This document shows positions 8,498 to 12,115 of a stretch of DNA of 16,953 nucleotides, piece by piece. A program made the translations under genes and the position numbers. This DNA is from Deltaproteobacteria bacterium RBG_13_61_14. Lineage in GTDB: Bacteria > RBG-13-61-14. The stretch covers positions 49,593 to 66,545 of the forward strand of contig MGQK01000041.1 in the NCBI GenBank assembly GCA_001797815.1. Reading direction: 5' to 3'. The notes beneath the pieces were generated by a model, which did not search any database, was not told where the DNA came from, and saw only the letters and a list, made by a program, of their open reading frames with translations. The stretch's first letter is position 1. Each line of letters opens with the position of its first letter.

Positions 8498-8612
8498 AGA
8501 GACTTTAGACATTAGGCATTGGGCTTTAGACTTGGAAACCCAAAACCAGAAACCAGGAACCAGCAACCAGAAACCACTTACCAGGCACCATGAACCAGAA
8601 ACCAGGAACCAT
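8498..8612. repeat. Low-complexity tandem region (TTAGAC/TTAGGC, then AACCAG-type units)
   Basis: From about 8498 the sequence is built of ACTTTAGACATTAGGC-like words, matching the 69-bp repeats at 11952-12115. From about 8536 to 8611 it is a degenerate tandem array of AACCAGAAACCAGGAACC-type units. A minus-strand open frame here is only a by-product of the repetition. Confidence 0.8.
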
Positions 8613-8618
8613 AAGTCT

Positions 8619-8690
8619 TGGCTTCTTCCTCTTGGCCGGAAAGAACAAGGCAATAGTTGTTAAGTTTAAAGTGAAGCGTTAACCCCAAAT
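8619..8690 (+). repeat. Left copy of the long direct repeat flanking the restriction-modification cassette
   Basis: The segment runs from TTGGCTTC through CTCTTGGC, AACAAGGCA and TTGTTAAGTTTAAAGT to ACCCCAA. It matches 11472-11542 in the same orientation and word order with scattered differences. It ends 7 bp before the GTG start of the methyltransferase gene. Its last ~30 bp also belong to the ATTGGGGTCA-type element family, read on the minus strand. Confidence 0.75.
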
Positions 8691-8697
8691 TACGCAC

Positions 8698-9900
8698 GTG
8701 AATGCACGAAAGACAAAGCAGGCTGCGAAGCGGAAGGAAGCGAGTTGCCTCCGTGAGTCTGGGGCGGTCTACACGCTGGGCAGGCGGACGACCGCACCAA
8801 GCGACCTTCTCCCCGGCTTTGACCTAATCATCCCCGGTGTTCCTCAATCCGATCCGACATACGCCATCGAGGCCGGATTCCGGAGATACGGACTAGAGGG
8901 AGAGGATGTTTTCCTCGCCCTTGCGGCGCGATGTGTACAGGAATCGCGCGGGCGGCACAACGGATTTGAGTTCTTTCAATACGAACGCGGACTGCAGGTC
9001 CTTGACCTAGTTACCCACGACCGACAGATTGATTCCATTCTCGCAAGGGTGTGCCTTGGTTCTGACGCGGTCGGTCATCTTCCCGTGTGGTACCAGTATT
9101 TCGTAGGTCGCCGTTTCAGAGAAGGATCGGGAAAGTTCTTCACACCAAGAACTGTCGCCCGATCAATGGCCAATCTTCTGCCACTCGATGCCGGACTGAC
9201 CCTCTGCGATCCCACATGCGGCGGAGGGACATTTCTTTCTGAGGCCGCTAGATTGCTTAATGGCACGCCGTGCGAGCTCGTCGGAAACGATGTGGATCGC
9301 ATGCTCGTTGGTTTGACCGAAGCCGTACTATTCTTGACTTGCGGCGGCACTCAGAAGCGGCATCTCTTCTGCAACAACGTCTATGATCGAGGCCCTTTCC
9401 TTGATGCTTATTCGAAACGCGTTGACTGCATTCTCGCGAATCCCCCGTTTTCCCTCCCGCTCGATAGCGTCGGTCTGAGGAGCACATTGTTCAACATGGG
9501 CTACCACAATAGCGACGCGGTTTTCCTGGACGTCTGTTTCGAACTTCTGAAGGAAGGTGGACACCTCGTTTGCCTTCTCCCCCATTCAATTGTTGTAAAC
9601 GTTGACTACTCGGAACTCCGGGCACACGTGGAACGCGAGTGGGACTTGTGCGGAATCATCACGTTGCCCGAGGGTGTTTTCTACATGACGGCCAGGACAA
9701 CCACACGTGCGGACATAATCCATCTTCGTAAGAAGACAGCGACAAAGACGGCGGCCTCCGGAGGGATCTACTTCGCCAACGCGCCCACCGTGGGGATACC
9801 ACTGAACTCCCGGGACACGATGTCAGGTAGCAACTCATTGGAGGATATCGCGGCGACAGTCCGGGCGAGGGGTTGTGTCGCAGGTGCGGCGGATTCCTGA
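8698..9900 (+). CDS. HsdM-like N6-adenine DNA methyltransferase (N6_Mtase fold)
   Basis: The protein is 400 aa, shorter than typical HsdM (about 500). A region of unknown fold (1-140) precedes an HsdM-type core. GSGKFFTPRTVARSMANLL (144-162) is motif X-like. DPTCGGGTFL (171-180) is the SAM-binding motif I and NPPF (248-251) is catalytic motif IV of N6-adenine methyltransferases. The predicted role is adenine methylation of a site chosen by the neighbouring S-like protein. The start is GTG at 8698 with no clear Shine-Dalgarno, directly downstream of a repeat; the true start could lie further in. Its stop overlaps the next ATG as TGATG, so the two genes are coupled. Base composition is less GC-rich than the flanking backbone genes, suggesting transfer. 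Confidence 0.9.
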   Translation: MNARKTKQAAKRKEASCLRESGAVYTLGRRTTAPSDLLPGFDLIIPGVPQSDPTYAIEAGFRRYGLEGEDVFLALAARCVQESRGRHNGFEFFQYERGLQVLDLVTHDRQIDSILARVCLGSDAVGHLPVWYQYFVGRRFREGSGKFFTPRTVARSMANLLPLDAGLTLCDPTCGGGTFLSEAARLLNGTPCELVGNDVDRMLVGLTEAVLFLTCGGTQKRHLFCNNVYDRGPFLDAYSKRVDCILANPPFSLPLDSVGLRSTLFNMGYHNSDAVFLDVCFELLKEGGHLVCLLPHSIVVNVDYSELRAHVEREWDLCGIITLPEGVFYMTARTTTRADIIHLRKKTATKTAASGGIYFANAPTVGIPLNSRDTMSGSNSLEDIAATVRARGCVAGAADS

Positions 9901-10547
9901 TGAAGAAGAATGGTTCATTCTTTCTATCGATTGTGGATCGGGCCTCATTGAAGCCGGCGATCTGGGACCCCTATTCCTACCGAGAGAAGAAGCAGACGCA
10001 GATACTTGGATACTTTGCATCGGTTCAGGCTCTAAAGGCTGCAGCGCTGCCTCCTCACGCTTTCAACTTCGCCCCTCTTGAGTATCGCCATATAGGCCGT
10101 GGCCACGTGCCAGTCTTCATTCTCGAATCTTCGGGCAGCGGACTTCAGAGCAGTTGTCACGGCGTTGGCGAGGGTGCGCTTTTATTCGGGACGATGCGGG
10201 CTTACTTGGGAAATGTGGTCGTGACGCCCCGTGCGGAATGGATTGGTGAACAGAGTCCGTTTGTCTTCGCCATCAAGTCCGAGTTCGTTCAGGTTGTGCC
10301 CAAGGATGGTTTGGTCTATTTCTGGTGGGCTTACCTACAAACACAGTCATTTCTTCACAGTCTTCCGATCGGCACGGGAGGGACACGTCCCCGCCTGCAT
10401 GCCTCATCGCTGTCTCAGACTCCTATTGAGGTTCCGACAAAGGACATTCGCGAGAGACTCCACGCACAGATTGAAGCCTTTGCGGCCAGTCTCTGGTCGC
10501 AGTACATGAAAACCCAGAGATTGCTCGAAAACACTATTGGACTCTAA
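9900..10547 (+). CDS. HsdS-like specificity subunit with a single target-recognition domain
   Basis: The ORF encodes 215 aa from the ATG at 9900, which overlaps the methyltransferase stop by 1 nt. Reading on from an upstream TTG at 9873 would add 9 residues. HsdS-type features are GEGALLFGTMRAYLGNVVV followed by SPFVFAIK, then GTGGTRPRLHASSLSQTPI and a C-terminal helix (RERLHAQIEAFAASLW). That helix may be the conserved spacer/coiled coil that docks on the methyltransferase. Classical HsdS has two target-recognition domains in ~400 aa; here only one fits, so the protein would need to dimerise or recognise an asymmetric short site. It is likely co-translated with the methyltransferase and followed after 1 nt by the nuclease-like gene. 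The fold call is from motifs only. Confidence 0.78.
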   Translation: MKKNGSFFLSIVDRASLKPAIWDPYSYREKKQTQILGYFASVQALKAAALPPHAFNFAPLEYRHIGRGHVPVFILESSGSGLQSSCHGVGEGALLFGTMRAYLGNVVVTPRAEWIGEQSPFVFAIKSEFVQVVPKDGLVYFWWAYLQTQSFLHSLPIGTGGTRPRLHASSLSQTPIEVPTKDIRERLHAQIEAFAASLWSQYMKTQRLLENTIGL

Positions 10548-10548
10548 C

Positions 10549-11274
10549 ATGACCGACATTAAAGAGAACGAACTTCATCGGTTGCGCAAAGCCTTCGCCC
10601 CATTGATTGGCCTTCGTATCACGTGGCTGTCCATTCCCGAGGCCGCTCTTGTTGGCTTTGAACCGAGTCAGATTGCGGTCATCGTCAACACCTTACTCGA
10701 CGCAATCCTCCCGCAAATACAGTTCCTTGCCTCTGACAAGGAGAATGCGGCAAAGCTCGCTGGCATCGGGCTGTCGAAGGCACCCGGCATCAAAGGTCAG
10801 CGAGAGACATATCCTGACTACTTGCATGTGTCGGGACGGCGAGTGGAACTGAAAGGGCTTTTCGTCGATAACCCCGACCTCGCCCTCAAAAGACCGCCAA
10901 CAGACCGAGAACCCAGCGCCCGCATTAAGGAAAATGTCACAATGGAGATCATCGATCCAGCCAACGACGCCCTCCTCGTGGCCGCTGTTAAATTGCTTCA
11001 GGATAAAACCGGGCGCTGTTCACCTTACGTCATAGACATCGGTGTTTTTTCTATGGTGGAGTGTGTGCGCGCCCGCGACGCGAGTCTTGCGGAGCGTGGC
11101 GGTAAGTGGATTGGTGGGATACCGAAAGTGGTAAAGAAGTCGAGCATGAGTAAGTTCAAGGCGAGCAAGCGACTTCAGAACTCCGACTTCGAAAAAGACA
11201 CCAATTTCGGCAAGTTGAAGCGCATACCATACCCGCCGCTGCAGGAGTTCATGCGGAAGCATGGGGCAATATAG
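10549..11274 (+). CDS. Predicted PD-(D/E)XK nuclease, candidate restriction subunit
   Basis: The ORF encodes 241 aa from the ATG at 10549, 1 nt after the S-like gene; an in-frame TTG at 10537 is possible. I do not recognise the family. The sequence YPDYLHVSGRRVELKG gives PD at 89-90, then E100 and K102, the PD-x9-ExK arrangement of metal-dependent nucleases. Residues 1-85 are helical, and the C-terminal third is basic (KVVKKSSMSKFKASKRL) and might bind DNA. No helicase, ATPase or methyltransferase motif is present, so it is not HsdR and not a fused type IIG enzyme. Position in the operon suggests it is the restriction partner of the methyltransferase/S pair. The nuclease call rests on one motif plus context. 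Confidence 0.68.
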   Translation: MTDIKENELHRLRKAFAPLIGLRITWLSIPEAALVGFEPSQIAVIVNTLLDAILPQIQFLASDKENAAKLAGIGLSKAPGIKGQRETYPDYLHVSGRRVELKGLFVDNPDLALKRPPTDREPSARIKENVTMEIIDPANDALLVAAVKLLQDKTGRCSPYVIDIGVFSMVECVRARDASLAERGGKWIGGIPKVVKKSSMSKFKASKRLQNSDFEKDTNFGKLKRIPYPPLQEFMRKHGAI

Positions 11275-11415: not shown

Positions 11416-11535
11416 ATGAGCAGAAGGAAGATGTTAGAATCAGTAAGTAGTTCATCTCCGCCGCTTCCTTTTTGGCTTCGTCCTCTTGGCGGAGGGAACA
11501 AGGCAGGGCTTGTTAAGTTTAAAGTAAAGCTTTGA
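11416..11535 (+). CDS. Doubtful 39-aa micro-ORF reading into the repeat
   Basis: ATG at 11416 opens 39 codons (MSRRKMLES ... KFKVKL) ending at TGA 11533-11535. Its C-terminal half is encoded by the direct-repeat copy at 11472-11542. There is no clear Shine-Dalgarno and no recognisable domain. The left repeat copy does not keep the frame. It is recorded for completeness and is probably not a gene. Confidence 0.15.
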   Translation: MSRRKMLESVSSSSPPLPFWLRPLGGGNKAGLVKFKVKL

Positions 11536-11542
11536 CCCCAAT
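11472..11542 (+). repeat. Right copy of the long direct repeat flanking the restriction-modification cassette
   Basis: Same word order as 8619-8690: TTGGCTTC, CTCTTGGCGG, AACAAGGCA, CTTGTTAAGTTTAAAGT, TTGACCCCAA. The two copies enclose the three-gene cassette plus about 200 bp. The intervening 11275-11471 holds one ATTGGGGTCA end and no convincing gene. Confidence 0.75.
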
Positions 11543-11638
11543 TTTTCGGTCAGTACCACTCACTTAGCAAAAGCGGGACTTCTCCTTTTCCCGCTGTGCG
11601 AAGACAGTGAAAGAAGAGAAAGAGAGGAAAAGAAGTCG

Positions 11639-11951: not shown

Positions 11952-12115
11952 AAGAGACTTTAGGCATTAGACATTAGGCTTTAGACTTCAGAAACATTAT
12001 GAGCGAATGGCCTAAGGTCTAAGAGACTTTAGGCATTAGGCATCAGGCTTTAGACTTCAGAAAGATTCTGAGCGCACGGACTAAGGTCTAATGCCTAAAG
12101 TCTAAAGCCCACCCT
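11952..12115. repeat. Two tandem 69-bp repeats plus an inverted tail reaching into the RND gene
   Basis: Unit 1 is 11952-12020 and unit 2 is 12021-12089. Both run AAGAGACTTTAGGCATTAG, GGCTTTAGACTTCAGAAA, TGAGCG and CTAAGGTCT, with about ten differences. The following ATGCCTAAAGTCTAAAGCCC (12091-12110) is an inverted form of the same words and carries the stop codon of the RND permease. Related words occur at 8498-8535. Confidence 0.85.

Follow-up and report, generated by a model that had tools for sequence, protein, structure and literature searches.

The cassette and its surroundings

Three intact genes, M, S and R, lie in the same direction at positions 8698–11274 of the window (the whole 16,953-nucleotide stretch of DNA analysed here), as confirmed by an ORF check of the window. 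An imperfect direct repeat of about 74 bp brackets the three genes.

8618..8691, + strand: left copy of the imperfect ~74-bp direct repeat bracketing the cassette, 84% identical to the right copy
8698..9900, + strand: M, gamma-class N6-adenine DNA methyltransferase subunit, HsdM-like, 400 aa, GTG start
9900..10547, + strand: S, half-HsdS specificity subunit, 215 aa, one TRD and one C-terminal helix (residues 181–214)
10549..11274, + strand: R, 241-aa PD-x9-ExK nuclease, predicted orthodox Type IIP restriction endonuclease
11472..11545, + strand: right copy of the imperfect ~74-bp direct repeat bracketing the cassette, 84% identical to the left copy

A longer reading of M is ruled out by an in-frame TAA at 8680–8682, upstream of its GTG start codon. 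M and S overlap by 1 bp (TGATG), the ATG of S lying inside TGATGA and sharing one base with the stop codon of M. The ATG of R is found one base past the TAA of S, leaving a 1-nt gap. These junctions are as described in the original prediction, which had also stated that the cassette lacks HsdR. In agreement with this, HsdR is absent from the window, and the three HsdR_N matches in the 4.7-Mb genome are all located on contigs other than that of the cassette (C41). Elsewhere in the same genome, contig C63 carries a Type I-like locus.

The cassette is surrounded by ordinary chromosomal genes. Upstream, these encode an aldolase, 3-dehydroquinate synthase II and a protein with DUF1232; downstream, they encode a pump of the AcrB type and the membrane-fusion protein that partners it. 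Its G+C content is about 52–57%, compared with mostly 61–66% for its neighbours, and the two copies of the 74-bp repeat are the sole near-full-length copies genome-wide. The lower G+C content and the flanking direct repeats are consistent with insertion of the cassette via horizontal transfer.

Further repeats are observed in this region. About 30 bp of the 74-bp repeat (around AAGTTTAAAGTRAAGC..TTGACCCCAAT) constitute a dispersed element, present at 12 more genomic places in both orientations. Downstream of the cassette, positions 11952–12089 of the window hold a 69-bp tandem pair with 90% identity. A motif of ~36 bp (AGAGACTTTAGRCATTAGRCAT...) is common to this tandem pair and to the upstream flank (8498–8533), and forms a second repeat on both sides of the cassette.

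The methyltransferase subunits and the nuclease

M matches the N6_Mtase family of Pfam (PF02384, E 3.5e-19), and its best solved relative among the PDB sequences is the HsdM of StySJI (E 2e-19). The motifs DPTCGGGTFL and NPPF, from which an HsdM-like methyltransferase had been proposed, are both present, and DPTCGGGTF and NPPF are conserved among relatives. The methyltransferase match is the only one in M, the nuclease being encoded by the separate gene R.

Searched alone, S has zero Pfam matches. A profile of the S family matches the HsdS of Thermoanaerobacter tengcongensis (3okg/5ybb) with an E of about 7e-20, and the alignment is confined to one half, the first, of an HsdS chain. The AF2 model of S (pLDDT 85) is composed of a single recognition domain and a single 34-residue C-terminal helix (residues 181–214), and it superposes on one half of the S chain of PacII (Z 13.7, residues 11–184 of 369–374). 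With its 215 aa, S covers just one half of the S chains of 370–475 aa. The profile match to one HsdS half and the anatomy of the AF2 model therefore identify S as a half-HsdS, modelled with a single TRD and a predicted dimerisation helix, which agrees with the one recognition domain originally assigned to it. The recognition sequence was not found in the paper on the Thermoanaerobacter HsdS, so none can be transferred to the TRD of S.

Three established classes were tried and rejected. Type I R-M was rejected because the window has no HsdR (SF2 helicase) and S has one TRD rather than two. Type IIB/IIG systems (BcgI, BsaXI) were rejected because M has a methyltransferase match alone and R is a separate gene. 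BcgI and BsaXI share with the cassette M and S domains related to those of Type I; in these enzymes the nuclease is fused to M and S carries two TRDs, whereas the window encodes a free nuclease chain and a one-TRD S. MADS was rejected because M scores 73 bits against mad2 (NF047738, cut-off 720) and S 13.8 bits (cut-off 400), and R has no match. MADS partner genes are not seen in the window.

The core of R is YPDYLHVSGRRVELK, which corresponds to the PD-x9-ExK signature reported earlier for this protein. The core residues D90, E100 and K102 are conserved throughout 40 aligned relatives, as is E38, with D90 unreadable in one of them owing to masked bases. No curated Pfam or NCBIfam family covers the R family, and the R of the window also has no PADLOC match. 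Among 40 R relatives, 25 give a weak match to the PADLOC model REase_II (PDLC03583) over a short segment at the C-terminus, with a best E of 3e-4. Searching the PDB sequences with an R profile returned noise only, and a sequence relation of R to any solved or named restriction endonuclease (REase) is not detectable.

The AF2 model of R (pLDDT 89) has R.SwaI as its best structural neighbour (Z 7.5, 144 residues, rmsd 4.2), followed by HincII (5.7), NhoI/Eco15I (5.4–5.7), NlaIV (5.2), PvuII (5.1) and EcoRV (4.9), all within the range (Z < 8) that, according to the tool's own warning, may mean just a common arrangement. The likeness to the R.SwaI, HincII, EcoRV and PvuII fold group is moderate, at about 8–16% identity, a level at which homology is not detectable from sequence. 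Foldseek points weakly to the same enzyme families (best E 0.011). Nearly all listed structural neighbours are orthodox Type II REases, and this near-uniformity makes the class likeness telling, each single match being moderate. On the basis of its model, R is predicted to be an orthodox Type IIP restriction endonuclease.

Relatives of R and their gene layouts

Searches with the single R protein (Pfam, NCBIfam, PADLOC, PDB sequences, plasmids, viral contigs and the genomes of 60 relatives) returned nothing outside its own genome. The family was opened by a search of phage records, which yielded a 43% identical protein in an element of Streptococcus suis. Later alignment-based scans gave 39 genome loci and 3 virus-contig loci with R homologues. 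Tabulation of the gene neighbourhoods, as suggested with the original prediction, reveals M and a half-S next to R in 38 of 44 R loci, distributed over many phyla. The arrangement is tandem as in the window in 15 of these, with M-S divergent from C-R in 17 and convergent in 6. In the other 6 of the 44 loci, R stands alone, the locus is incomplete or lies at the edge of a contig, or M is broken. Because the trio recurs in many phyla, it is not a chance association.

Two clades are distinguished. Clade A (60–84% identical) includes the window, cyanobacteria, Verrucomicrobia/Kiritimatiellota, Omnitrophota, Bacteroidota, Acidobacteria and others, with a tandem M-S-R operon in every case and no controller gene detected in its loci. 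Clade B (40–52% identical) includes S. suis, Lachnospiraceae, Chloroflexi, Proteobacteria, archaeal MAGs and others; in 17 of its loci M-S and C-R diverge (one of these has an M-S fusion), and in 6 M-S and R converge. Plasmids gave no match when an R of clade B served as the query. The small HTH controller (C) proteins of clade B match C.BclI (1.4e-10) and C.AhdI (8.7e-9) in the PDB, where three generic XRE-type proteins score higher. Between the clades, identity is about 45% for R and 25% for M, and the S proteins can be aligned by profile only, being homologous over their full length (hhalign probability 81, pairwise E 1e-5). The length of the half-S is nearly constant among relatives.

Several individual loci depart from these layouts. 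At L022 (3607–5568, − strand), M and half-S are fused in one 653-aa chain with the S match at residues 444–644, reminiscent of the single-chain methyltransferases of the M.DrdI type. A 321-aa ORF on a Nitrososphaera MAG contig (L028, 317–1282) matches both C protein and R, and is an apparent controller–endonuclease fusion. In the S. suis element, a gene with PvuRts1I-like and SRA domains (L002, 2629–3468, − strand; PF21598, PF18491) adjoins the M-S genes, and its domains indicate that it is likely a modification-dependent nuclease. S is split in an Acidobacteria MAG (L016, 5544–6023) and M in a Thiodictyon MAG (L025, 4926–5666), suggesting decay or assembly errors. Nothing usable on the methylome of the relatives was found in the literature. 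The R family is widespread and linked to half-S methyltransferases, and it appears to be without a name in the curated libraries searched.

The distribution of the trio bears on the idea of a degenerate or repurposed Type I system, in which M and S would be left over from a Type I locus, with R as an unrelated neighbour. M does belong to the same large family as HsdM, and the genome holds the Type I-like locus on C63. The conserved M-S-R synteny already contradicts this reading: the linkage recurs in 38 loci of many phyla with the catalytic residues of R kept, the half-S hardly varies in length, and R and S diverge together. We assign it next to no probability.

Use of the genes in modification-dependent or other non-R-M defence is also very unlikely. 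R would then cut methylated DNA, as suggested by two of its fold neighbours of intermediate rank, NhoI and Eco15I (Z about 5.4–5.7), whose structures were solved with methylated target DNA, or M, S and R would form an abortive or regulatory module, a use to which the best NCBIfam match of M, MADS mad2, points from far under its cut-off. However, a nuclease cutting the methyl mark of M itself would be lethal beside M, the window shows no visible MADS partner genes, and control by C proteins, as present in relatives, is characteristic of Type II R-M.

Source of cleavage specificity and class of the system

In the original prediction, S was proposed to guide cleavage as well as methylation. R would have no specificity of its own and would be recruited by an M2S2 complex, the half-S directing both methylation and ATP-independent cutting by a free-standing PD-ExK nuclease. 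The single tight operon of M, S and R in the lineage of the window, and the nearly invariable position of R next to a half-S, are compatible with this. Several observations nevertheless argue against it and leave it improbable. The R model resembles self-sufficient Type IIP REases, and conservation is higher in R than in M or S, the M of the other lineage being only ~25% identical. In clade B, R is mostly paired with a C gene, and the two form a unit transcribed separately from M-S. Furthermore, two copies of R survive where M and S are not recognisable. One is an intact R in a 1.9-Mb Clostridia MAG, a possibly incomplete record with no recognisable S or N6_Mtase. The other is a lone homologue with an intact PD-ExK on a phage contig (L006, 4995–5798; IMG/VR UViG_3300050821_010028), a 51.7-kb and possibly incomplete record with no recognisable M or S; it is possibly a phage nuclease recruited from the R family.

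Specificity shuffling, the main gain of S-guided systems, is not seen in S. In Type I systems, the specificity domains of S are swapped while M and R remain constant (PMC3874165). Here, the identity of S correlates with that of R (clade A, r 0.96; clade B, r 0.89; Mantel p 0.0005) and with that of M (r 0.98 and 0.91, respectively). The shortfall of S relative to M never exceeds 5.5 points in clade A or 16 points in clade B. Conservation within the S proteins of clade A is higher in the recognition domain than in the C-terminal helix, opposite to the pattern of Type I. The co-divergence of S, M and R, the separate transcription units of clade B and the lone R copies favour a specificity residing in R itself, although correlated divergence is also expected from shared descent alone, or from an S-guided R whose specificity never changes.

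The combination of M, a single-TRD S and a separate small REase corresponds to a named subtype, one of the outcomes that the original prediction had listed as refuting it. Type IIH, as defined from AhdI, pairs a Type IIP-like REase with a methyltransferase whose M and S are separate and work as a 2M+2S assembly (PMC4081073). In a review of Type I systems the plan is called 'Type 1 1/2', with M.AhdI, M.PshAI and M.BsaBI each consisting of 2M and 2 single-TRD S (PMC3874165 Table 3), and the S subunit of AhdI, of 25 kDa, is about half a classical S (PMC2878638). The cassette has a Type I-like gamma methyltransferase from separate M and S genes (by the PF02384, HsdM PDB and HsdS profile and fold matches), a single-TRD S with one helix (181–214) that is half an HsdS, and a separate small REase (R, 241 aa) with no helicase or translocase on the contig (HsdR_N search). 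As all anatomical features tested match the Type IIH description, we count the trio as Type IIH, a placement drawn from gene layout and the published descriptions of AhdI, PshAI and BsaBI.

With AhdI, the cassette shares a separate gamma M, an S of about one TRD (25 kDa in AhdI) and a separate small REase, a likeness of layout. The AhdI system has a C protein, as does clade B, whereas the clade of the window has no C gene and a single M-S-R operon. PshAI and BsaBI, likened by description, share 2M + 2 single-TRD S methyltransferases and a separate REase (PMC3874165 Table 3). DrdI, XcmI and XmnI follow the same logic but with M and S in a single-chain gamma methyltransferase, a fusion seen in L022; in the window the two are separate.

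The cassette is thus very probably a horizontally acquired Type IIH (AhdI-like) R-M operon, with M2S2 methylating and the separate R cutting the same site. Two M and two half-S chains would join through the C-terminal helices of S, and the resulting M2S2 methyltransferase would methylate adenine at N6 in the two strands of an interrupted, symmetric recognition sequence. R would act as a separate ATP-independent, Mg-dependent PD-(D/E)xK homodimer, presumably reading and cutting the same sequence by itself when it is unmethylated. The earlier view of an R-M cassette with a nuclease-like third protein, no translocase and likely ATP-independence is retained, and its novel plan and S-guided cleavage are not. 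The trio had been said to fit neither of two known plans; the comparison behind that statement covered just the Type I and BcgI-like plans, and Type IIH was missed.

The operon is ordinary in kind and probably functional. The layout itself has been known since AhdI, and it is just the nuclease family that appears to lack a name in the libraries searched. This work documents a widespread REase family of bacteria, archaea and mobile elements, linked to half-S in three gene layouts. Its members are candidate new enzymes for cutting interrupted palindromes, and the family bears on the idea of Type IIH as a bridge between Type I and Type II.
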